A stretch of 37,690 nucleotides of DNA from an uncultured Bacteroidota bacterium (GTDB lineage Bacteria; Bacteroidota; Bacteroidia; UKL13-3): NCBI GenBank assembly GCA_903850915.1, contig CAINMV010000002.1:1-37690 (forward strand), in the 5' to 3' direction. Shown here piece after piece: positions 937 through 37,690 of this stretch. A program made the translations under genes and the position numbers. How positions within the stretch are numbered: position 1 is the stretch's first letter; each line of letters starts with the position of its first letter. The notes below the pieces were generated by a model. The model was not told the DNA's origin. It saw nothing but the letters and a program-made list of their open reading frames with translations, and ran no database searches.

Positions 937-970
937 AAAAAAGCAAGTCGAAAATAACATTTCGACTTGC
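937..970 (-). terminator. Rho-independent terminator of the T9SS cassette
   Basis: Two perfectly complementary 10-base arms, GCAAGTCGAA (943-952) and TTCGACTTGC (961-970), enclose an 8-base loop. On the minus strand the hairpin is followed by six T. It lies about 75 bases past the stop of the lipoprotein gene at 1044-1478, so it closes the operon that begins at 7252. Confidence 0.85.
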
Positions 971-1043: not shown

Positions 1044-1478
1044 TTAATCTACACTCTTTAAACGAAACTTTAAGGATATACCTATCGCCTTTGCTGCATT
1101 GGCTCGTCCTGATTCAGTTACATAATACAACAACTTATTTGTGGTTGCATCGAAAACAACGTACAAGTTTTTCTCATTTTTGTAGCGTTCTGGACCGCCA
1201 CGCAAATTGTCTGCGTTATTTTGATTTTTAATATTTACTTGCTGGTATTTAAGTTTGTACTTAAATACAACTACCTTGGTTTTGTTTTCAATTACAGAAT
1301 AAACATCCTTTGGTGGAATGTTTAAACCAGAGACAACTTCATCTAATGTCATCCCATATTTTAGATTAAAAATCAAGGCTGGTGTGGTGTCGTAGTTAGT
1401 TTGAATTTTACTTCTAGAGCAACTAGTAGTAAATAAAAGCGCAATTAAAAAAAATGCGGATAATAATATATTTTTCAT
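1044..1478 (-). CDS. Small lipoprotein with a BamE/SmpA-like motif
   Basis: This 144-residue hypothetical lipoprotein has a hydrophobic signal peptide ending in a lipobox (FTTSC, lipidated Cys20), so it should be anchored in the envelope. After the anchor, residues 38-55 read LKYGMTLDEVVSGLNIPP, which resembles the G-M-T-x-x-E-V-x-x-x-L-G-x-P motif of BamE/SmpA-like small lipoproteins. The rest is a hydrophilic domain with YVVFDATTNKLLYY. It is the last gene of the minus-strand cassette, 27 bases after the preceding lipoprotein gene, and a strong terminator follows. Both lipoproteins share the BamE-like segment, so they may have arisen by duplication and divergence. Function unknown; a role with the upstream PorP-OmpA fusion is inferred only from the operon. 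Confidence 0.8.
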   Translation of the reverse strand: MKNILLSAFFLIALLFTTSCSRSKIQTNYDTTPALIFNLKYGMTLDEVVSGLNIPPKDVYSVIENKTKVVVFKYKLKYQQVNIKNQNNADNLRGGPERYKNEKNLYVVFDATTNKLLYYVTESGRANAAKAIGISLKFRLKSVD

Positions 1479-1505
1479 GAATTGGATTTTTTTGTTGATT
1501 AATAT

Positions 1506-2336
1506 TTAGTTTTTCTTGGCTGGTTTGGGGATCATTTTTAACTTACTATTGTCAGTAGCTTCTATTTTATTTCCGGGTGACGTCTTCTTTGCTTGGTTAA
1601 ATTTAGGCAATTGAAATTTCGATGATTTGCTTTTCTCATCAGCTTTGTCGCCATCTAAATTCAAATTCACATTAATCGTTGCCTTACTTGCCGTTAACTT
1701 ATCAATAATCTCACAATTGCTGCAAGAAACCTGACCGTTTCCGGCATCATGATTGGCAATAGAAATACACTTAGAATTACACTCCGAAACCGGTTGCATT
1801 GAGTTGAAATTCGGGTTTTTTATATATTCACAAGGGCAATATTCACAGGCACCATCACTTACAATGGCATCAGGGTTATAATTTAAACTCATTGGATCAG
1901 TACATCCTCGTAGTCCTTTTTCTTCGCATATATCGTTAATTTTAGTGAGGTCATTTATTAACTTATCCAAATCCCTTTTCCCTATATTAGTGATCATAGA
2001 TTGTAATTTACCATCCTTATAAACAATAACAGCATCAGATTCATCAACATACTGCTGCACTCCTGAAGTTAGCCCAACAGCTCTTGCTTCTTCATAGCTA
2101 GTGTTTAATTTTGCTGGCGTTTTATATTTGTATAAATGCACTTCACATGCACCTCCGCCCGACATTACATCGAAAGGGAAAACACTTCCAAGGGTTTGCT
2201 TTACTTGGGCTTTAGTGCTACCAATAGTTAAATTGGCTAAGTCCACCGAGGATACATAATTGGGCAATAAAACGAAACGGGTTTTACAGCCGCTTATTAC
2301 AAAAAGTAATAAAACAATTTTTAGGGTTAATTTCAT
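1506..2336 (-). CDS. Cysteine-rich lipoprotein with BamE-like and GCTDP-type motifs
   Basis: This 276-residue predicted lipoprotein has signal peptide lipobox VISGC (Cys17). Residues about 34-52 (LANLTIGSTKAQVKQTLGS) resemble the BamE/SmpA-like helix-turn motif also seen in the next gene. Around residues 143-166 there is a GCTDPMSLNYNPDAIVSDGACEY-type unit, a short Cys-containing repeat common in secreted Bacteroidota proteins; one copy is present. A Cys-rich stretch follows, to about residue 210 (CPCEY, CNSKC, CSNCE). The C-terminal 50 residues are Lys/Ser-rich and look disordered. It lies 59 bases downstream of the PorP-OmpA gene and 27 bases upstream of the second lipoprotein, so it is probably co-transcribed with both. 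Function is unknown; an envelope role next to a T9SS outer-membrane partner is inferred from context. Confidence 0.8.
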   Translation of the reverse strand: MKLTLKIVLLLFVISGCKTRFVLLPNYVSSVDLANLTIGSTKAQVKQTLGSVFPFDVMSGGGACEVHLYKYKTPAKLNTSYEEARAVGLTSGVQQYVDESDAVIVYKDGKLQSMITNIGKRDLDKLINDLTKINDICEEKGLRGCTDPMSLNYNPDAIVSDGACEYCPCEYIKNPNFNSMQPVSECNSKCISIANHDAGNGQVSCSNCEIIDKLTASKATINVNLNLDGDKADEKSKSSKFQLPKFNQAKKTSPGNKIEATDNSKLKMIPKPAKKN

Positions 2337-2395
2337 TGTTGGTTTGGATTAATTGTTGTTTTAAATTTAGTTGGGAAATGCTATAATTTTAGTTG

Positions 2396-4093
2396 TTAAT
2401 TGAAAATATATTCGATGTTAAATGCAGGTATTGTATTCTCTGAATTACTTGAATTGAGTTTTGAATTTTCAACTCCATAATATTCTATAAACACACGTTC
2501 TTGATCTAAACCCAAGGCGATCAAACGATTCCTAACCGATTCAGCTTTTTTATGCGATAGTTCGACATTTGAAGCATCGAATCCTGAAATATTACATGTT
2601 ATTTTAACATTCCAATCGCCATTAACATTGAGCAACTTCGACAACTTGCTAATGTCTCTATCCGACTCATCTGAAATTCTAGTTCCATCAAATCTAAGAT
2701 CTCGAACAAGCTGCTTTAACAGTTGATTTTGAGAATCAGAAATAACAGGACAACCATGGTTTTCGGAATCACCTTTTGTGTTAGGGCATCTATCGGCTGT
2801 ATCAACAACATTATCGTTATCTGTATCTGGTGTTTTAAATATTAATGTTGAAGTTTCATTTGAGTTCTCAAGTGGAGGCGCATTTCTGTAAGAAGTTGGA
2901 TTGTTGTCTTGCACTTCATTACTGTTGGCGGTGTTTCTAAAACTGGTAGACGTAGATTCCACTTTTTCCTCCTTTAATTGAGTGTTTTTAAAACTTGTAA
3001 CTTGGGGTTCTTGAACGTTCTCAGATATATTCTCTTTTGGCTTTTCTAAAATAACTTTTTCAGGCTGCAGTGTCACCAATTCCTCCTTCTTTTCTTTCTT
3101 CGGTTCTTCATTTGGTTCAACTTTAGGAGCCTCTAGTTTTTTCTTTTCTATTACCACAGGCTTCTCTTTAACAGGATTTCTCGTTTTTTCATTTTTTACC
3201 TTCGACTTTATAAAGTATCCCAGAAAAATCTCTTGTGAGGCAGAAGTATATGGAATATTGGATGTAATGTAATAATCGTAACTATATCCTACATTAAAAT
3301 TTTTCAAGTTAAACCCGACTAACCCTACTAAAGAATGAGATGGACGATAAGACGCCGCAATCCAAAACGCTTTTCCAAATTTCAATTTTAGGTTTAAATC
3401 CAATGCCAAATCGGAAATTTCAGTTTTTCGAAGCACGACCGATGGCTCAATTTTTATAGCCGAGTCTATACTAAATGAAAAAGCCGTTGTAAAATAAAAA
3501 TGACGAGCCAATCGGTTGGATTGATGCGATGAATCCAATTCTTGAAGTGGCGACTCGAGGAGCTGATGTGATGCCAAACCAATTTTAAAAGCATTTTTAT
3601 AACGAAACATTATACCTGCATTGGCATCAGGAGTAATTGCTTTTTGAAGATTCAAAGGCATCAATGGATCATTTTGATAAAGAGTCTTTACTTTGGAATT
3701 GTCGAAGCCAAATTGATTAACAACGCCTGAAAGGCCAAGCGACATATTAAAGTCTTTAGTAAACCTAACGTGATATGCATAGTTAATCGCCACCCCACTT
3801 CGAGTGATTGCACCTCCTGTGGCATCTTTATAAATGTTAAAACCAAGCCCCATCAAACGGCTTAATTTAAAGTTACCACTTGCCGTTAATGTATTGGGCG
3901 ATGAACTAAGTCCCACCCATTCCTTTCGGTTCGAAATCCAAATTGGATTGCGTGTTGCATAACCTGTATTTCCGGGATTAATAATCGCATCATTAATATA
4001 AAATTGACTGAAAGAAGGCAACTGCTGACTATATAATCCTGAGCAATTGAAAAAAATCAATCCAAGGAGCGTAAAAATTCGTGTGATTCTCAT
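2396..4093 (-). CDS. PorP/SprF-family T9SS outer-membrane protein fused to an OmpA-like domain
   Basis: The 565-residue protein has four parts. Residues 1-22 are a signal peptide. Residues 24-295 form a PorP/SprF beta-barrel, with the diagnostic start QLPSFSQFYINDAIINPGNTG and alternating strands such as LGFNIYKDATG. Residues 296-422 are a Lys/Glu/Pro linker with a 17-residue repeat. Residues 423-449 are a calcium-binding thrombospondin-3-type unit (DTDNDNVVDTADRCP), followed by an OmpA-like domain to the end (NVELSHKKAESVRNRL, with Lys where the usual Arg would be). SprF-type proteins anchor or export cargo with type B sorting domains, and OmpA domains usually bind peptidoglycan. Its start lies six bases past the stop of a type B cargo gene, which strongly suggests they work as a pair. 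SprF itself lacks an OmpA domain, so the fusion is notable. Confidence 0.88.
   Translation of the reverse strand: MRITRIFTLLGLIFFNCSGLYSQQLPSFSQFYINDAIINPGNTGYATRNPIWISNRKEWVGLSSSPNTLTASGNFKLSRLMGLGFNIYKDATGGAITRSGVAINYAYHVRFTKDFNMSLGLSGVVNQFGFDNSKVKTLYQNDPLMPLNLQKAITPDANAGIMFRYKNAFKIGLASHQLLESPLQELDSSHQSNRLARHFYFTTAFSFSIDSAIKIEPSVVLRKTEISDLALDLNLKLKFGKAFWIAASYRPSHSLVGLVGFNLKNFNVGYSYDYYITSNIPYTSASQEIFLGYFIKSKVKNEKTRNPVKEKPVVIEKKKLEAPKVEPNEEPKKEKKEELVTLQPEKVILEKPKENISENVQEPQVTSFKNTQLKEEKVESTSTSFRNTANSNEVQDNNPTSYRNAPPLENSNETSTLIFKTPDTDNDNVVDTADRCPNTKGDSENHGCPVISDSQNQLLKQLVRDLRFDGTRISDESDRDISKLSKLLNVNGDWNVKITCNISGFDASNVELSHKKAESVRNRLIALGLDQERVFIEYYGVENSKLNSSNSENTIPAFNIEYIFN
2846..2998 (-). repeat. 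Three tandem 17-residue units in the PorP-OmpA linker
   Basis: Units begin at residues 366, 383 and 400 with TSFKN, TSFRN and TSYRN, an exact 17-residue (51-base) period. A fourth degenerate unit (LIFKT) starts in phase at residue 417. The rest of each unit is diverged and acidic or polar. The repeat lies between the beta-barrel and the OmpA-like domain, so copy number would set the reach between outer membrane and cell wall. Confidence 0.75.
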
Positions 4094-4099
4094 TGTAAA

Positions 4100-7000
4100 T
4101 TATCTTTTAATGGTGATGGTGCCTGAAAAACGGGCGTCATTGGTCTTTAAATCGATCAAATAATAGTAATCGGCTGTTGGACATTCTTGCCCATTGAATT
4201 TACCATCCCAAGGCGTGGAATACCCCTCACTCGAATAAATAATTTGCCCCCATCTATTATATACATTTAAGATGCTATTTGGATAATCTCTAATTCCAGG
4301 TATTTCCCAAATATCATTGATGCCATCTCCGTTTGGTGTAAACATTGTTGGAATAAAAAAACAGGGAACATCCGAACCTTTAACATTTACAAAGGCACTA
4401 TCAAAACATCCATTGGCATCGGTTATAATAACTTTATAGGTACCGAAATCTTTTAAAGCCACCACATCAATAATTGGATTTTGATCGTTGGATGTGTATC
4501 CGTTGGGGCCTATCCACTTATAAATAACCCCTCCTGAAGCCAATAGAGATAAGGTATCTCCAGTGCACAATTTATTTCTAGTAATTGATGCCACTGGCTT
4601 AACCGCAGGAAATAAATTTACGGTTATAACTTCTAATATGCCTACGCAACTCCCATTAAGTGAGGTGGATAGAACATTGTATGTTAACGTTTGCGTAGTA
4701 CTTGTTAAATTAACTAGCGTATCATTAATAACACCATTGCTTTGTGCATTAGCCGATGCACCTTTTACATTTGAATTGGCGATAGCTAACCAAGAAAATG
4801 TTGACGGAACTGATGCCGTTAAAGCCAAGTTCACGGAACTTCCTGAACATACATTGATTGCGTTTGCACTAGTTAACCGAGGCTCAGGCAACACCGAAAC
4901 GGTTATGGTTGAGATATTTCCAGCGCATGAACCGAGATTAGAGGTTGGTAAAACATCATAATCAATAGTTTGAATGGAATTGGTTGTATTCACTAAAATA
5001 TCACCAATATAATTATTGTATTGAGCGGTGGCACTAGCGCCTGAAATATCTGGATTTGGTTTGGCAATCCAAGCAAATGAAGAACTAATATTCGCATTTA
5101 AAGTCACGCCCACCGAGGTTCCACTACAAATCGTTTTAGTTAATGCGGTGGTGAATGATGGCATAGGATTCACTGTCACAATAACGTTCTGAGAGGCACC
5201 TGTGCAGAGCGCACTAGTTGATTTTGGTGTTACTAAATACGTTACGGTTTGAGGCACACTGGTTAAATTATTCAACAAATCACTAATAATATTAGTTGAT
5301 TGAAGTGAGGTGCTTTCACCATTTATATTTGGGTTAGATGTAGCCACCCAAGTGAAAGTGGAAGTTAAGTTTGCTGCAAGATTGAGGTTCACCTGATTTC
5401 CACTACAAATAGTAACTGACAAAGAACTAGTAAGCGTAATAGCTGGCAATACGTTAATCACTACCGTTTGGGGGAGACCAGTACACATAGATCCATTGGA
5501 TTTAGGTGTAACAATATATACTACAGCTTGAGTGGTTGCGGTTGTATTTACTAAAACATCACTAATTATTCCAGTAGATTGTGTGGTGGTAGTTTCCCCA
5601 GAGACAGCGGTGTTACTTACTGCAGCCCAAGTAAATGTAGAGGCAACATTAGAAGTGAGTGTTAAATTCACAGCAGCACCATTGCATCGTGTTAGCGAGG
5701 AAACACTTGTCATGGTTGGTGCAGGATTTACAGTAATCGTAATAGTTTGAGGCGCACCGGAACAGCCTCCTGATATCGCAGTTGGAATAACGGTGTATGT
5801 AATGTTTTGTGGTATGGTAGAAACATTCACTAATGTATCCGTAATGATTGATCCTGTTTTAGCAGAAGTACTTGCACCTGTGATATTTGCATTTGATGTG
5901 GCAACCCAACTGAAATTTGAACCCAAATTAGACGTTAACCCAAATGCTAAAGGCACTTTACTACACGTTATTCCTGTTGCTCCACTCGTCATAGCAGGCG
6001 TCTGGTTTATTGTAATATTATATCCTATTGTTTGACCTGTAGCGGCTACATTGGAACTTACAATGCGAATTCGATATCCTGAACCTGATGCTGTTGAAAA
6101 AGGAATTACCGCGCTTATTGTTCCTCCGGTTAAACTTGTAAGTGTTCCTATATTAACCGGAGAAGTAAAGGAACCAATAGAGTTGCTTAATTGAGCCGTA
6201 AATACGTTTCCTGAATTATAAACACCTGCTACAGTAAAGTTTATTGGGACCGTAGCACCTGAACAAATAACCGACGGAATCGTATCTAATCCAATATCAT
6301 TAATCGAAGTATATTCCCATAAATCGTTTATTCCTGCAGTACCATTTAATCCAGTTCCAATATAGCCTTTCCCATTCACATCGAAGCCACAAACGGCCTC
6401 CCTTAAAGTACTAGGAAAACTCAAAACTGTTGTCCAAGCATTGGCAGTGGATGCATATTTGTAGGTAATGGTTGACAATACAGTACTAGCATAACCAACA
6501 GTAACATATCCATTGGGACCTATAGCAAAGGCTCCTCTTTTATAGCCGCTCGATGGCATACTTGAAATTGCAATCCAAGCATTGGTAGCAGGATTATATT
6601 TATAAAAATCAATTTGCCCAATCGAAGTTGCATTTAAACCACCGCCCACATAGGCGATATTATTAATTACAAAAACACTGGCTGAATGCCGAGCCGCGCC
6701 AGGGAAATTAGCTTTTTGTGTCCATGCATTGGTGGCAGGATTGTACTCCCATAAGTCGTTATAACTAAGTAAGCCATTGGTTCCTAAACCAATATATCCT
6801 TTTCCATTGGCTGAAAACCCTACGGCCCTGCAACGTGCTGCAGCAGGCAAACTAGCTTTTGCAGTCCAAATATTAGTGGCGGGGTCATATTCCCAAAAAT
6901 CGCTATAGTTTCCAGCTGTTGTAGGAATAGCTGCTGAATTTCCTGTGCCTACATAAACCTTGGTGCCAATGGAAAAAGCAACTGCCAAGTGCCTTGAGGC

Positions 7001-7252
7001 TATTGGGAAATTGGCTTTAATTGCCCAAGTATTTGTTGTAGGATTATATTCATAGAAGGCTTGATTATTGGCAACGGTTGGAGCCGTACGATAACCTAAA
7101 CCAAGGTAACCTTTGCCGCCAACAGATGCAGCAACACCATTATAAATACTGCCTCCAGGGTAGGCAGCTCTATTCAACCAAGTGTCCTGAGCATTGAGAA
7201 AACAAGAAATAAAAGATAGGCTAACTCCAAAAAGTAAAAATAATTTCCTCAT
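4100..7252 (-). CDS. Secreted Kelch and repeat adhesin-like protein with gliding-type (type B) C-terminal sorting domain
   Basis: The 1050-residue protein has signal peptide 1-21 and six Kelch-like units (about 25-315; recurring GKGYIGLG, YNPATNAW and DLWEY), predicted to form a beta-propeller. A beta-sandwich-like region follows at 320-418, then five about 93-residue repeats at 420-883, each with a CSG-type start, a ...F-x-W-x-A motif and a TYxVxP end. An Ig-like segment (885-960) and the C-terminal domain (965-1050) complete it. The last has the hallmark FTPNGDGINDIWEI, IYNRWG-type and WDGKFNGQ motifs of gliding-motility/CHU_C type B domains, which direct export through T9SS. It is the first gene of the minus-strand cassette and is followed after six bases by its likely PorP/SprF partner. 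A surface or adhesive role is inferred; the ligand is unknown. No consensus promoter was found in 7253-7487. Confidence 0.88.
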   Translation of the reverse strand: MRKLFLLFGVSLSFISCFLNAQDTWLNRAAYPGGSIYNGVAASVGGKGYLGLGYRTAPTVANNQAFYEYNPTTNTWAIKANFPIASRHLAVAFSIGTKVYVGTGNSAAIPTTAGNYSDFWEYDPATNIWTAKASLPAAARCRAVGFSANGKGYIGLGTNGLLSYNDLWEYNPATNAWTQKANFPGAARHSASVFVINNIAYVGGGLNATSIGQIDFYKYNPATNAWIAISSMPSSGYKRGAFAIGPNGYVTVGYASTVLSTITYKYASTANAWTTVLSFPSTLREAVCGFDVNGKGYIGTGLNGTAGINDLWEYTSINDIGLDTIPSVICSGATVPINFTVAGVYNSGNVFTAQLSNSIGSFTSPVNIGTLTSLTGGTISAVIPFSTASGSGYRIRIVSSNVAATGQTIGYNITINQTPAMTSGATGITCSKVPLAFGLTSNLGSNFSWVATSNANITGASTSAKTGSIITDTLVNVSTIPQNITYTVIPTAISGGCSGAPQTITITVNPAPTMTSVSSLTRCNGAAVNLTLTSNVASTFTWAAVSNTAVSGETTTTQSTGIISDVLVNTTATTQAVVYIVTPKSNGSMCTGLPQTVVINVLPAITLTSSLSVTICSGNQVNLNLAANLTSTFTWVATSNPNINGESTSLQSTNIISDLLNNLTSVPQTVTYLVTPKSTSALCTGASQNVIVTVNPMPSFTTALTKTICSGTSVGVTLNANISSSFAWIAKPNPDISGASATAQYNNYIGDILVNTTNSIQTIDYDVLPTSNLGSCAGNISTITVSVLPEPRLTSANAINVCSGSSVNLALTASVPSTFSWLAIANSNVKGASANAQSNGVINDTLVNLTSTTQTLTYNVLSTSLNGSCVGILEVITVNLFPAVKPVASITRNKLCTGDTLSLLASGGVIYKWIGPNGYTSNDQNPIIDVVALKDFGTYKVIITDANGCFDSAFVNVKGSDVPCFFIPTMFTPNGDGINDIWEIPGIRDYPNSILNVYNRWGQIIYSSEGYSTPWDGKFNGQECPTADYYYLIDLKTNDARFSGTITIKR
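4604..5995 (-). repeat. Five diverged ~93-residue protein repeats in the Kelch/type B protein
   Basis: Residues 420-511, 512-604, 605-698, 699-791 and 792-883 align end to end. Each carries a Cys near its start (ITCSK, TRCNG, TICSG, TICSG, NVCSG), a NLxxxFxW-type strand, an S/A-T-A/T-Q-S segment, I-x-D-x-L-V-N, and a second Cys before the last strand (GGCSG, SMCTG, ALCTG, GSCAG, GSCVG). The paired cysteines suggest one disulfide per domain. Confidence 0.8.
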
Positions 7253-7487: not shown

Positions 7488-7521
7488 AAAAAAAAGTTCC
7501 AGAGGAAAAAACCTCTGAAAC
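7488..7521 (-). terminator. Rho-independent terminator after tRNA-Leu
   Basis: On the minus strand a 10-base-pair stem (7496-7521, one T:G pair) with a six-T loop is followed by eight T. It starts four bases after the tRNA-Leu 3' end. Confidence 0.85.
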
Positions 7522-7524
7522 TTG

Positions 7525-7608
7525 TGCTCGGGACGGGGGTCGAACCCGTACAGCCGTGAAGCCACAGGATTTTAAGTCCTGCGTGTCTACCAATTCCACC
7601 ACCCAAGC
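7525..7608 (-). tRNA. tRNA-Leu (anticodon UAA)
   Basis: The 84-base gene folds as a class II tRNA. The acceptor stem GCTTGGG pairs with CCCGAGC (one G:T), with discriminator A at 7525. The anticodon stem CAGGA/TCCTG encloses CTTAAAA, giving anticodon TAA. A long variable arm follows, then the T-arm GGGTTCGACCCC. The CCA end is not encoded, because the bases after the discriminator read CAA. It lies downstream of tRNA-Gly. Confidence 0.95.
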
Positions 7609-7613
7609 GGTGT

Positions 7614-7647
7614 AAAAAAAATTAGTAGCCGTAGCTACTAATTTTTC
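7614..7647 (-). terminator. Hairpin terminator between the two tRNA genes
   Basis: A perfect 9-base-pair stem, ATTAGTAGC (7621-7629) and GCTACTAAT (7634-7642), encloses a four-base loop. On the minus strand seven T follow (7614-7620). On the plus strand it is followed by five T, so it could work in both directions. It lies three bases past the tRNA-Gly discriminator. Confidence 0.75.
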
Positions 7648-7649
7648 TG

Positions 7650-7722
7650 AGCGAGAGACGAGGCTCGAACCCGCGACCTTAACCTTGGCAAGGTTACGCT
7701 CTACCAACTGAGCTACTCTCGC
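7650..7722 (-). tRNA. tRNA-Gly (anticodon GCC)
   Basis: The 73-base gene has acceptor stem GCGAGAG/CTCTCGC with discriminator T at 7650, a D-arm AGCTCAGTTGGTAGAGC, an anticodon stem TAACC/GGTTA around loop TTGCCAA (anticodon GCC), and T-arm CGGGTTCGAGCC. CCA is not encoded. A Bacteroidota promoter lies immediately upstream and a hairpin terminator immediately downstream. Confidence 0.96.
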
Positions 7723-34245: not shown

Positions 34246-34786
34246 AGAATCTATTAATTACGGCAACCAATAATGATAAGGGAGCAAATTACCAGCTTTG
34301 GTGGTATTTTAAAAGCCTGATGCGAATATCTGTAATTAGTTTAACTAAAAATGAACAACGTAAAATAATTGCCAAAAAAAATAAACTATTTTCGAAATTT
34401 GCAGTTTAACGAATTTATGCAATAACCGAATTATCCTTTTGATCAATCTTAGGAAACGACTTAGGCTATTAATACAATGTTCGATTTCATAAACTTTAAT
34501 TTTTACTTCATTTCTGAAGGTTTTAAGGAACATATATTGTGACATTAGTAATTTAAAAAGCAACCAAAATGTTAATTAAACCAAAAAAACATTTCAGTCT
34601 TTTGACTTGAGTATTATTATTTTCTAGTGGTTGAAATCAAAAACTAACTGTTAAAAATATGATTTTAAAATTCAAATAACATTATTAAATATTAATTCGA
34701 AAATAATAATAGAAAGGAAATATTATAATGTCTTTTTAGTGCTATTTTGATAATATAAAAAACAAATGCAGTTAATGTGACATGGG
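34246..34786. other. Non-coding AT-rich spacer upstream of the multi-domain phosphatase
   Basis: About 540 bases with strong A/T bias. No supported coding region was found; the one short open frame here (34345-34563, minus) is compositionally biased and unlike a protein. The only signal I see is the promoter element at its right end. Confidence 0.6.
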
Positions 34787-34794
34787 TAAGTTTG
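34787..34794 (+). promoter_or_regulatory. Promoter -7 element of the multi-domain phosphatase gene
   Basis: TAAGTTTG matches TAnnTTTG and lies 23 bases before the ATG at 34818. No good -33 element was found. Confidence 0.45.
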
Positions 34795-34817
34795 TAAACA
34801 AAAAACGTCCCCATTTC

Positions 34818-37690
34818 ATGAACTTCAAATTTACAAAGTCTGTCTACTTTATCGGTTTTTTGTTATTATTTAGCATAAAAACATTTGCACAAATCACTAA
34901 AATTCAGGATTACCTGAATATTACTTCCCCAACTATTGGGACTTTTCAAGGAATCACTTTTCGCGAAGCGGGATTCTCCGGTTTGTATCCTATAGCGGGA
35001 ACTAATGGCACCGAATTTTGGACATTATCTGATAGAGGTGTCAATGTAGATTGCGGTAGTGCAAACTCAGCATCATGTCGCCCAACCTATGATAAAATGT
35101 ATGCATTCCCATCCTATGCACCTAAAATACATCGCATTCGTATCATAGGAACGGAAGTCCAGATTTTGCAAACAATCACCATTAAACGTCCTAATGGTAG
35201 CGGCGCTTCAGGAATCATTAACCCAACTGGTTTAGGAAGTACAGCCATAGAGGTTGCATCTACCGACACGGTATTGGATTGCGCCAATTTCAATTTGAAA
35301 ACCACTCCTAAAGATACTTTTGGTATCGACCCGGAAGGTATTGTGGTGGATAAAGATGGTAATTTTTGGTTATGTGAAGAAGGTGGTGCTACCATCTGGA
35401 AATTAAGCCCTAATGGAGTTTTATTAAAACGTTATACTCCTTATGCTAACTTAGCCGGTGCACAGTCAGTAGATGTGCAAATAGACACAGTATTTAAATA
35501 CAGAAAGAACAATCGTGGATTTGAAGGTATAGCCATCGCACCCAATGGTAAAATATATGCCATTATTCAAAGTCCTTTATTATATCCTACTACTTCAATA
35601 GGAGAAGGAACCCGCATACATCGTATTCTGGAAATAGACCCGAGTAATAATGCCATGCGTACCATAGTATATTTAAATGATGGTATCATTGGTTCTAGCG
35701 GTTCGAATCAAATAAGATTAAGAGATTGGAAAATTGGCGACATGGCAGCAGTAAATGATAGTGTATTTTTGGTATTAGAAGCTGCAGCAAGAGGAACCTC
35801 AGATATCAAACGTTTGTATCAGATTAATATCAATCAAGCTACTGCTGTTACCTCAGCATTATATGGCACCCAAACATTAGAGGCTTTGGTTGATTCAACA
35901 GGATTAGCCAGTAAAGGGATAAAAGCCGTAAAGAAAACTTTGGTGATGGACTTATTGGCAAATGGATGGCCAGCCACTTTAGATAAAGCAGAAGGTTTAG
36001 CTATTATCAATGACAGTACCATAGCTATTAGTAATGATAATGATTTCGGTCAAACTTGTCCGAATGCTGATGGAATTGCAATTCCAACAACTAACGTGAG
36101 TCATGTAATTACCTTTGGATTAAGTGGCGCAAATAAATTATCGAACTATCAGCCAGCTAATCCACCATCTAATGCGAAGCAAGACTACTCTTTTGTTGTA
36201 TTGGGATGTAATCGAGTAGAAACAGATGACTCAGTAGGAAATCCAAGTACCGCTAATGTATATCAATTAAACAGGGTGTTCACTGAAATTTCTCAAATGA
36301 ATCCATTACCAAAATATTTATTTTTTGCGGGAGATATGGTTTTGGGATATGAAAACGACACCATGAAATTAGCTTCTCAGTTAAGCAACTGGTTGGCTAT
36401 TTATAATGCGCATCCAATAAAAAATTTACAAGTTCAATTAGTTGCCATCGAAGGTAACCATGAAACCCAAGACAAAGCCAATGGTAAAAAATCATTTGTT
36501 GCCGCTGAAAGAACTTTCGTGCGTGTCATGGGAAATTATATCCTTGGCAGCAATGGACCAACGATTACCGGACTGGTTCCCGGAACTGACAGTTTAACTA
36601 CCGATCAAAGTAAACTCACCTACTCCTTCAATTTTAAAAATGACCACTTTGTTATTGTAAATACAGATCCTGTTGGAAGAGATGCAAAAGTATCATACAA
36701 TTGGATTAGAAATGACATTGCGAATGCACGTACCAATGGCGCCCGACATATTTTTGCTATAGGTCATAAACCAGCATATACTGGTCATTTTAAAAGCACA
36801 CCTGATGGACTGGATAATAATATTTCACAGCGTGATAGCTTTTGGAATACTATGGAACAATATCAGGCAGATGCATTTTTCTCAGCGCACATACATGCTG
36901 CCGATTCATTGCAACCACATGCTGGAAAAACATGGCAGGTAATAGCAGGTAATGGTGGAAGTTTGGTAGAGCCAACTTTTACTTCCTTCCCAAATGCTTA
37001 TTTCGGATATGTAACGGTTCATGTTTACGATAACGATTCAGTGAATGTAAAAAGCTGGGGTCGCGATGCCGTGATGACCGCCACCAGATACCAAGATTCG
37101 ACACCAGGAAATCCTACTACCTTAAGAGCAAGTTACAATTTAAATATCAACCCAGTAATAAGACATACTCCTTTAAGTAATACATTATTGAATGGTCCTT
37201 TTACTGTTGCTGCTACTATTACAGATAATATTTCGGTTACAGGAGCACAATTGAATTATAACGTGAATGGTGTAAATCAAACGGCTATCGCACCAACGAT
37301 TTCAGGAAACACTTATACATTTATTATTCCTTCAATTTCTGGATATGGCCTAATTAACTATAATATACAGGCAAACGATGCTTCCTTGATTAAAATTTAT
37401 TCAATTGGAGTTGGGTCAAGTTATCATTCTTTTAGTTTTGGACCAATTAGTCAGAAAGGACCAAGTAGTTCACAAACTCCTTATTTGGTTCCAGTTGCGC
37501 CTGGTGTGATTTTAAATTCCATCCTCACCACTCCTGACTCTTTAGCCAATGGATATAAAATGGCAGGTATTCCCGATGGCTTAGGTGCCTATGATAATGG
37601 CAATGGAACTTTTACATTGTTGATGAATCAAGAATTGGGTAATACGGTAGGTGCAGTAAGAGCACACGGATCAATAGGATCTTATGTATC
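34818..37690 (+). CDS. Secreted multi-domain phosphatase: phytase-like esterase plus metallophosphoesterase (3' end outside window)
   Basis: The frame stays open from ATG 34818 to the edge (957 codons). Residues 1-24 are a signal peptide (ending TFA). Residues 25 to about 450 resemble the esterase-like activity of phytase domain, with GTEFWTLSDRG near the start, FGIDPEGIVVDKDGNFWLCEEGG in the middle, and GFEGIAIAPNGKIYA. Residues 458 to about 755 are a metallophosphoesterase, with FAGDMVLGY (Asp506), GNHE (Asn547, His548), GHKPAY (His650) and SAHIH (His691, His693). The usual first Asp-x-His motif is replaced by VLGCNRV. An Ig-like segment (about 775-870) follows, and then a third module with MAGIPDGLGAYDNGNGTFTLLMNQELG. 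It probably scavenges phosphate outside the cell; a T9SS sorting domain is expected past the edge. Confidence 0.85.
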   Translation, partial: MNFKFTKSVYFIGFLLLFSIKTFAQITKIQDYLNITSPTIGTFQGITFREAGFSGLYPIAGTNGTEFWTLSDRGVNVDCGSANSASCRPTYDKMYAFPSYAPKIHRIRIIGTEVQILQTITIKRPNGSGASGIINPTGLGSTAIEVASTDTVLDCANFNLKTTPKDTFGIDPEGIVVDKDGNFWLCEEGGATIWKLSPNGVLLKRYTPYANLAGAQSVDVQIDTVFKYRKNNRGFEGIAIAPNGKIYAIIQSPLLYPTTSIGEGTRIHRILEIDPSNNAMRTIVYLNDGIIGSSGSNQIRLRDWKIGDMAAVNDSVFLVLEAAARGTSDIKRLYQININQATAVTSALYGTQTLEALVDSTGLASKGIKAVKKTLVMDLLANGWPATLDKAEGLAIINDSTIAISNDNDFGQTCPNADGIAIPTTNVSHVITFGLSGANKLSNYQPANPPSNAKQDYSFVVLGCNRVETDDSVGNPSTANVYQLNRVFTEISQMNPLPKYLFFAGDMVLGYENDTMKLASQLSNWLAIYNAHPIKNLQVQLVAIEGNHETQDKANGKKSFVAAERTFVRVMGNYILGSNGPTITGLVPGTDSLTTDQSKLTYSFNFKNDHFVIVNTDPVGRDAKVSYNWIRNDIANARTNGARHIFAIGHKPAYTGHFKSTPDGLDNNISQRDSFWNTMEQYQADAFFSAHIHAADSLQPHAGKTWQVIAGNGGSLVEPTFTSFPNAYFGYVTVHVYDNDSVNVKSWGRDAVMTATRYQDSTPGNPTTLRASYNLNINPVIRHTPLSNTLLNGPFTVAATITDNISVTGAQLNYNVNGVNQTAIAPTISGNTYTFIIPSISGYGLINYNIQANDASLIKIYSIGVGSSYHSFSFGPISQKGPSSSQTPYLVPVAPGVILNSILTTPDSLANGYKMAGIPDGLGAYDNGNGTFTLLMNQELGNTVGAVRAHGSIGSYV

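Follow-up and report, generated by a model that had tools for sequence, protein, structure and literature searches.

Gene organisation of the locus

The stretch of DNA analysed here, referred to as the window, comprises 37,690 nucleotides from an uncultured Bacteroidota bacterium. Four open reading frames, located on the minus strand between positions 1044 and 7252 as an earlier note on this DNA had described, encode in the order of transcription a type B cargo protein of the T9SS, a PorP-OmpA protein, lipoprotein 2 and lipoprotein 1. The intergenic gaps are of 6, 59 and 27 bases. The features of the locus, all on the minus strand, are given below from upstream to downstream.

7524-7608, minus strand: tRNA-Leu (taa), which in five species of the genus forms the conserved upstream border of a locus that varies
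7494-7523, minus strand: terminator-like stem in the interval between tRNA-Leu and the cargo gene (terminator scan)
4100-7252, minus strand: T9SS type B cargo of 1050 aa with signal peptide (by eye), Kelch repeats, PKD-like repeats and type B sorting domain
4103-4354, minus strand: type B sorting domain (TIGR04131 / CHU_C, profile matches)
2396-4093, minus strand: protein of 565 aa with PorP/SprF-type outer-membrane barrel, linker, weak TSP3-like stretch and OmpA-like tail
3215-4030, minus strand: PorP/SprF barrel domain (PF11751 residues 22-293; TIGR03519 residues 6-293)
2450-2692, minus strand: OmpA-like domain without peptidoglycan-binding hallmarks (PF00691 residues 468-548; alignments)
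1506-2336, minus strand: lipoprotein 2 of 276 aa with lipobox Cys17 (by eye), BamE-like domain, Cys-rich GCTDP domain and Lys/Ser-rich tail
1938-2261, minus strand: BamE-like domain of lipoprotein 2
1713-1928, minus strand: Cys-rich GCTDP domain of lipoprotein 2, residues 137-208 (conserved cysteines in the alignment)
1044-1478, minus strand: lipoprotein 1 of 144 aa with lipobox Cys20 (by eye) and BamE-like domain
943-970, minus strand: intrinsic-terminator-like stem ending the four-gene run (terminator scan)

The last of these stems agrees with the terminator that the earlier note had placed at 937-970. Two weaker terminator-like stems of the minus strand are internal to genes, one in that of the cargo (7148-7168) and one in that of PorP (3724-3741), the scan giving 9 sites in total versus 6.3 expected. 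Promoters of the Bacteroidota type follow the consensus TTTG-N17-23-TAnnTTTG. With at most one mismatch in all, no such promoter is found upstream of the cargo gene or in the three gaps, so that this pattern indicates no internal promoter; the absence is little informative because the background is about 1.1 matches per kb. The sigma-70 promoter scan, with 38 sites versus 32.4 expected, is uninformative. The layout is compatible with a single transcription unit for the four genes.

The cargo protein and its PorP-OmpA partner

The C-terminal region of the cargo protein matches TIGR04131 with 80.4 bits (cut-off 35) and CHU_C with 85 bits, which bears out the view of it as a Kelch/repeat protein with a type B sorting domain. 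Its repeats are recognised in Pfam as Kelch and as five PKD_5 stretches. The gene following after six bases had been assigned to the PorP/SprF family and this holds as well, with matches to TIGR03519 (212.6 bits, cut-off 90.55) and PF11751 (204.4 bits). A type B cargo with a co-encoded PorP/SprF protein is, in the portions of two published accounts that are drawn on here (PMC12618676, PMC9143113), the arrangement of a shuttle or anchor, in agreement with the co-encoded SprF-like partner expected earlier. The cargo and PorP-OmpA part of the locus is a known kind of surface-protein export pair. It resembles SprB-SprF and Fjoh_3952-Fjoh_3951 in having a TIGR04131 cargo with a PorP/SprF gene directly behind it and differs from them in the OmpA-like tail on the barrel, the missing CxC tail and the two lipoprotein genes that follow.

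A Cys-Xaa-Cys motif in the periplasmic tail is described for gliding-type SprF in a part of PMC12635249. Such a tail is absent from the PorP-OmpA protein, the cysteines of which occur only at residues 17, 436, 448 and 500, and since it is missing the surface display is, on sequence grounds, probably static rather than gliding.

The OmpA-like C-terminal region is assigned with 31.2 bits to PF00691 (cut-off 27.2). The residues of OmpA-type domains that bind peptidoglycan are the Asp of GHxD and the Arg of RA. In alignments the tail encoded in the window has CNIS in place of GHTD, a lysine in place of the arginine of RA (LSHKKA) and no NRR, and owing to the loss of these hallmarks the link to the cell wall that had been proposed earlier is weakened and is not supported. 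A full PorE was not detected in the protein either, NF052230 giving just 30 bits (cut-off 600) over the OmpA part only. The tail is a PorE-like domain fused to the barrel that probably no longer holds the wall. Complexes of cargo, PorP and PorE and static PorE-containing operons are described in portions of the two accounts mentioned above (PMC12618676, PMC9143113). The locus shares with the PorE-PorP-PG1035 complex and with the F. johnsoniae operons encoding a PorE homologue the co-encoded cargo, PorP barrel and OmpA-type domain. Unlike in these, the OmpA-like domain is here fused to PorP, no PorE-length protein is encoded and the peptidoglycan-binding hallmarks are missing.

PorP-OmpA fusions in other genomes

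The OmpA-fused partner had been regarded earlier as part of an unfamiliar layout. We have identified at least 12 PorP-OmpA fusions in 30 loci opened, two of them from the genus of the window; the other 18 loci have no fusion by the local OmpA profile, and as some of these have long frames the count of 12 is a floor. A type B cargo gene or sorting domain lies directly ahead of 11 of the 12, and alignments spanning both the PorP and the OmpA parts come from at least seven families in one draw of 395 genomes, so novelty of the fused partner is not supported. These 12 fusions largely retain the hallmarks, namely the Asp of GHxD in 10 (C in 2), the RA arginine in all and NRR in 11. The own genome has PorP over cut-off at 5 places and a second copy with a large cargo (G000:C23), and relatives are also found in G020, G021 and G023.

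Sequence family and fold of the lipoproteins

The two lipoproteins had been said to carry the same BamE-like segment. A profile made from four relatives, with the proteins of the window left out, picks up both of them with 44.6 and 35.2 bits, the next protein reaching 5.0, and by this sequence profile they belong to one family beyond chance. To that extent the statement stands; BLASTP of lipoprotein 1 against lipoprotein 2, however, finds nothing (E 5.3), and lipoprotein 2 alone reaches Pfam BamE (PF04355), below threshold with 17.3 versus 23.2 bits, lipoprotein 1 giving no match. Pfam BamE is hit by 22 of 41 family members with an E-value of 0.1 or less. A match to a BamE sequence in PDB (E 0.0015) includes the signal-peptide region, and against chains without that region the E-value is 0.04 or weaker.

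The best Foldseek match of both lipoprotein models is BamE (E 0.005 and 0.002), with VIA Z up to 7.4 and a pLDDT of 52.6 for the lipoprotein 2 model; structural matches of this kind (Foldseek E 0.002-0.05, VIA Z below 8) are at the level that the tool calls a possible common arrangement. TpgA-N is also among the fold matches of the lipoproteins, and those of lipoprotein 1 include the B. fragilis T6SS immunity protein BtiO (9uu1, Z 6.4), for which our literature search found no paper, and BLIP (Z 7.9). With BamE, BLIP and BamE-like immunity proteins the lipoproteins share a predicted domain of two helices and three or more strands behind the lipobox. They differ in staying below the Pfam cut-off, in forming a family of their own with several clades and, for lipoprotein 2, in the additional Cys-rich domain.

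This likeness in sequence and fold would fit general barrel-assembly helpers, that is, stand-ins for BamE that act on BAM rather than on the cassette, the more so as bioinformatics is said in a part of PMC12578637 to suggest that Bacteroidota have no BamE homologues. The family is however uncommon, being carried by 27 of 395 genomes of the class, own genome included, and the lipoprotein 2 type by 1 of 395 genomes drawn from the phylum, the own one (at E 1e-12, with few candidates scored per genome). Since a general assembly factor should be widespread, we consider this role very improbable.

Distribution of the lipoprotein pair

One other genome (G299) encodes orthologues of both lipoproteins in the same order, with 45% and 43% identity, and without cargo or PorP. 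In a tree the lipoprotein 1 and lipoprotein 2 types form two distinct clades, and a partner of the lipoprotein 1 clade is adjacent in 10 of 10 genomes of the lipoprotein 2 clade, which represent five families. By comparison of these sequences the lipoproteins are shown to be a two-gene module which is conserved and also occurs in the absence of the cassette. No description of the pair was found in a full-text literature search. A third gene of 229-250 aa stands behind the pair in G299, G663, G633 and G599; it has no usable family match and is for this reason not taken to encode a barrel.

In 30 lipoprotein regions, drawn from 29 other genomes, no cargo or PorP gene adjoins the lipoprotein over the length that the contigs cover. 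A contig end removes the flank upstream of the pair in G663, G599, G436 and G573 and almost does so in G225; the lipoprotein 2 gene is split over two contigs in G633 and runs off the contig in G292. A further genome scan for lipoprotein 2 gave 3 loci, two with the cargo-free pair and one ending inside lipoprotein 2, which appear to be the same as G663, G299 and G633 and are not independent. No orthologue of the full four-gene cassette turned up in the lipoprotein 2 scans. None of the 30 opened PorP and PorP-OmpA loci has a BamE-like lipoprotein of this family in its 1.5-kb flanks.

These counts bear directly on the interpretation given in the earlier note, in which the cargo, the OmpA-bearing barrel and both lipoproteins constitute a dedicated, self-contained module linking surface, outer membrane and cell wall. 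The compact order on one strand closed by a terminator-like stem, the known PorE-PorP-cargo complexes and the presence of TpgA-N among the fold matches are in keeping with it. The search for the same gene order elsewhere has however revealed that the lipoproteins occur mostly without cargo and partner, an outcome that the earlier note had named as refuting it, the OmpA tail has no wall-binding residues, and lipoprotein 2 is not conserved within the genus as described below; a four-part module of this kind is therefore improbable.

Members of the family have also been identified beside other secretion genes. In four genomes of one genus (g148) a single family lipoprotein lies directly behind porV2-porU2, which are T9SS genes; the four may go back to one event. 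This points to a possible second link to the T9SS, a point in favour of the module idea. A literature search on PorV2/PorU2 gave nothing relevant by title. Tandem pairs of other clades are found in G152 and G039, a tandem in G514 having been left out of the tree, and the two members in G039 lie within a T6SS locus with TssN and TssO.

The variable site behind tRNA-Leu

In other species of the genus the site behind tRNA-Leu is occupied by other genes, and lipoprotein 2 was not found in four same-genus genomes beyond the short GCTDP motif, which rules out the cassette as a feature of the genus. The family profile likewise gave no match in the sister genome G020 of the class draw. Because the pair is absent in the sister species, we infer from these sequences that its association with the cassette arose in this lineage, the site behind tRNA-Leu being a variable one. 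The layout of four genes seems to be a local combination and not a standard machine, since elsewhere the lipoproteins stand as a two-gene unit without cargo or PorP. Integration by tRNA duplication was considered and rejected, the window having no second copy of the tRNA-Leu 3' end and no long exact flanking repeat being seen. The base composition of the cassette genes (32-40% G+C, against 36.9% for the window) gives no sign of recent foreign origin.

The variation of the site between species also speaks for the main rival explanation, that the lipoproteins are BamE-like proteins of immunity or inhibitor type which are carried along as passengers of the variable locus and have no relation to the cargo or its shuttle. 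Membrane-anchored BamE-like immunity proteins are reported in PMC12419801 as the most widespread of the new immunity types against lipocone toxins, and the fold matches to BtiO and BLIP and the tandem members in the TssN/TssO locus point the same way. Profiles of Pfam and of TIGRFAM/NCBI type nevertheless detect nothing resembling a toxin domain in any of the four encoded proteins, and PADLOC has no match for the two lipoproteins and PorP-OmpA, on which ground a defence system is also rejected. The co-divergence of lipoproteins 1 and 2 over five families, with a conserved Cys-rich domain in one of them, is unexpected for fast-swapping immunity genes, and a relative stands behind porU2 in four genomes. 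On balance we regard a role in immunity as rather unlikely.

Possible role of the lipoproteins

The reading that we propose, and to which we give about even chances, is that of a T9SS operon for the surface display of a type B cargo, to which a lipoprotein pair has been added; the pair may brace the barrel from the periplasmic side. As shown for relatives, the Kelch/PKD cargo would be exported by the T9SS and then received by the cognate PorP/SprF barrel, which would hold it at the cell surface. Most likely the lipoproteins would sit on the periplasmic side of the outer membrane, where they may attach to the barrel and brace it when the surface protein is pulled, in the way known of TpgA-N and the adhesin AtaA. 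This last step, suggested by our analysis of the fold, is by itself possible but doubtful. Family members elsewhere are observed away from PorP, and a tandem pair of the family is found in a T6SS locus; both observations speak against this reading.

The wall-binding domain of TpgA is of the OmpA type. In the AtaA-TpgA system of Acinetobacter sp. Tol 5, TpgA, to which the lipoproteins have a fold match, binds the outer-membrane barrel that displays the adhesin, and a domain of wall-binding type is part of the system. The secretion system is a different one, and TpgA joins the barrel- and wall-binding domains in one protein beside a trimeric autotransporter, whereas here the BamE-like domains form lipoproteins of their own, the barrel carries the OmpA-like domain in a degenerate form, and the cargo is of T9SS type. 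The likeness is a comparison of how the parts may work only.

The means by which type B surface proteins are kept on the cell are under active study; some of them glide, and others are static and thought to be bound to the wall via PorE. The window encodes a PorP barrel that includes a PorE-like tail, seemingly without wall binding, and two BamE-like lipoproteins behind it, and if these brace the barrel they would represent a second way of holding type B surface proteins. The pair is conserved and has BamE-like domains, in a phylum for which bioinformatics suggests the lack of BamE, as a part of PMC12578637 has it. A broader possibility, which we consider unlikely, is that lipoproteins with a BamE fold form a class, so far undescribed, of accessory subunits that assist T9SS outer-membrane barrels from the periplasm. 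A single copy would then serve PorV2/PorU2 in one genus, and here PorP would be served by a co-diverging pair, of which one member has a Cys-rich domain, in bracing or sorting without wall binding.

Organisation of the four-gene locus

The source genome (2.94 Mb in 37 contigs, 99.65% complete), which T9SS families and its neighbours place in the Bacteroidota, contributes the window as its contig 2, in which a minus-strand run of four genes spans 7252 to 1044 with intergenic gaps of 6, 59 and 27 bases. All the elements named in the earlier note, namely the four open reading frames, the type B sorting domain, the PorP/SprF-OmpA protein, the lipoproteins and the terminator-like stem, have been confirmed to be present.

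Features of the four-gene run in the window
7494-7523, terminator-like stem behind tRNA-Leu, upstream border of the run
4100-7252, minus strand, cargo of 1050 aa; Kelch repeats, PKD-like repeats, type B sorting domain
2396-4093, minus strand, second gene, PorP-OmpA protein of 565 aa (PorP/SprF with OmpA tail)
1506-2336, minus strand, third gene, lipoprotein 2 of 276 aa
1044-1478, minus strand, fourth gene, lipoprotein 1 of 144 aa
943-970, terminator-like stem

The gene past the latter stem (199-903) encodes a protein with the C-terminal domain of arginyl-tRNA-protein transferase (ATE_C, 60.5 bits). An open-ended gene with phytase-like and calcineurin-like phosphoesterase domains is located at 34782-37688.

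The cargo and its OmpA-fused shuttle

The cassette is comprised of a cargo and shuttle of known kind, and is a variant through a degenerate OmpA tail and an added lipoprotein pair. In two reports, the type B substrates tested require a cognate PorP/SprF shuttle, PorP is found to bind the cargo PG1035 as well as PorE, and five F. johnsoniae operons encode a type B substrate together with a shuttle and a homologue of PorE (PMC9143113, PMC12618676). The type B cargo with its co-encoded SprF-like partner, as proposed earlier, matches this published dependence, and the cargo-shuttle half of the cassette is thus already familiar.

The OmpA-fused partner had been counted, along with the two lipoproteins, as part of an unfamiliar layout; by itself it is not unusual, as the fusion is not rare and would be expected from the PorE-PorP complex. 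A fusion profile run on one draw of 395 class genomes aligned over both the PorP and the OmpA parts at at least 20 places in at least 18 genomes of at least seven families, the window's own counted. Using a local OmpA profile, the fusion has been identified in 12 of 30 opened loci, two of the 12 belonging to the genus of the window, and in 11 of the 12 a type B sorting domain lies immediately upstream on the same strand. No mention of such fusions was found in a limited full-text literature search. One of the two same-genus fusions is a second copy in the source genome itself (contig C23); it follows a cargo 2869 aa or more in length and has relatives in the same-genus genomes G020, G021 and G023. 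This copy (L065:7898-18129) keeps intact GHAD, RRA and NRR motifs, and its gene order, including a downstream gene of the 268-aa type, recurs in the same three genomes.

The aspartate of GHxD, the arginine of RA and the NRR motif are associated with peptidoglycan binding in OmpA-type domains. The tail encoded in the window has CNIS in place of GHxD and lysine in place of the RA arginine, and lacks NRR, whereas in the 12 other fusions the aspartate is present in 10 (cysteine in two), the arginine in all 12 and NRR in 11. The cell-wall link suggested earlier for the module is therefore doubtful. SprF has a Cys-Xaa-Cys tail that is reported to couple the gliding adhesin to GldK (PMC12635249), whereas no such tail was found in the PorP-OmpA protein, whose cysteines are residues 17, 436, 448 and 500. 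Because the hallmarks and this tail are both missing, display of the cargo would be static and probably not wall-bound.

A family of BamE-like lipoproteins

The BamE-like segment said to be common to the two lipoproteins stands in so far as they belong to one family, although BLASTP gives no mutual match. A profile built from four relatives, with both window proteins excluded, scores the two at 44.6 and 35.2 bits, the next protein reaching 5.0; lipoprotein 1 is the cleaner test, as the four relatives were originally found with lipoprotein 2. Membership in BamE itself does not stand, the likeness suggested by the models being one of fold. Pfam BamE is touched by 22 of 41 family members at E up to 0.1, and against BamE chains of the PDB the family profile gives E 0.0015 where the alignment takes in the signal peptide, and 0.04 at best for signal-peptide-free chains. 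The lipoprotein 1 model (pLDDT 74, from seven sequences) has BamE as its best Foldseek match (E 0.005), with BLIP, OsmE, BamE, BtiO and TpgA-N at VIA Z 7.9 to 6.3; the poor lipoprotein 2 model (pLDDT 53) likewise points to BamE.

Lipoprotein 2 also carries a Cys-rich GCTDP domain (window 1713-1928), in which C137, C145, C164, C167 and C169 are invariant and C190, C205 and C208 nearly invariant in 10 rows. Frames of 693-798 residues in family f19 share the short GCTDP motif.

The two lipoproteins form a module of their own. Genome G299 encodes orthologues of both (45% and 43% identical) in unchanged order and with the Cys-rich domain kept, and has no cargo or PorP in 19 kb. A third short gene follows the same pair in G663 and, to the extent that contig ends permit, in G633 and G599 of the same genus. 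In a tree of 48 family domains with two starred clades, the lipoprotein 2 clade (10 rows) has the GC[TM]D Cys-rich domain in 10/10, and all 10 genomes, spread over five families (f1, f3, f19, f23, f50), have an adjoining partner from the lipoprotein 1 clade (12 rows); four subgroups are common to both clades. The remaining members are mostly solitary, tandem pairs of other clades being found in G152 and G039.

The main rival reading is that the lipoproteins are immunity proteins. A membrane-anchored BamE-like family is the most widespread immunity type found for lipocone toxins in one study (PMC12419801), the tandem pair of G039 adjoins TssN and TssO, and BtiO, among the fold matches of the lipoprotein 1 model, is a T6SS immunity protein. 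However, no toxin-like element was seen in the four-gene unit, and the two lipoprotein types, one of them with the Cys-rich domain, diverge jointly across families. In the T6SS locus (L061:6945-10668), the tandem lipoproteins directly follow TssN, a gene with a weak, sub-threshold likeness to TssK, and TssO.

Occurrence of the cassette

The earlier reading of a self-contained four-gene module finds no support in the comparison, and the link between lipoproteins and cassette is not general. Lipoproteins occur with no adjoining PorP or type B cargo at any of 30 loci in 29 other genomes, as far as contigs reach, the nearest such genes being about 6.4, 7.1 and 8.1 kb away (L062, L099, L100); conversely, no family member was found within 1.5 kb flanks at 30 opened PorP loci. 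Any family member is present in 27 of 395 genomes of the class draw, own genome counted, and the lipoprotein 2 type in one of 395 of the phylum draw, which is the window's own.

The site behind mutS, tRNA-Gly and tRNA-Leu (window 7524-7722; L152-L155) is variable among species of the genus. It is occupied by a giant PKD/Ig protein running off the contig in G020, a 1716-aa protein in G021 and G022 (type A tail by Pfam in the G021 copy) and an unrelated gene in G023. With these differing contents, and with lipoprotein 2 not found in the four same-genus genomes, short motif aside, the cassette is lineage-specific, through either gain in this lineage or loss elsewhere. Several of the varying genes encode large surface proteins.

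Association with porU2

Four genomes of genus g148 have a lone family member immediately after porU2, which is itself preceded by porV2; the gene behind the lipoprotein is lnt-like, a name given from its translation.

The porV2-porU2-lipoprotein loci of genus g148, with lipoprotein-porU2 gap
L108:2105-8732, 19 bases
L109:8647-15400, 76 bases
L112:1-6094, -1 (one-base overlap)
L118:2577-9191, 13 bases

Of the proteins scanned, two PorU2 and two PorV2 exceed the cut-off, and the others match those at 61 to 83%; porV2 of L112 is visible in part and porU2 of L109 in pieces. This adjacency, from one genus and perhaps one event, keeps alive a possible T9SS role of the lipoproteins. The TpgA-N likeness of the lipoprotein 1 model is of interest here: TpgA-N binds the AtaA adhesin's barrel, and a simulation study argues that this binding alone strengthens the anchor, even when nothing couples it to the wall (PMC13082670). 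The lipoprotein family, with the two links to the T9SS described for it, deserves follow-up.

A weak type B profile match (13 bits) adjoining the lipoprotein of L109 is not a cargo and is a piece of porU2, which there occupies two overlapping reading frames (L109:9167-14184), broken or through sequencing error. A 384-aa relative (L106:10062-11216) shows a weak likeness to outer-membrane barrels in its C-terminal half (OMP_b-brl, sub-threshold at E 0.0018) and is a possible lipoprotein-barrel fusion.
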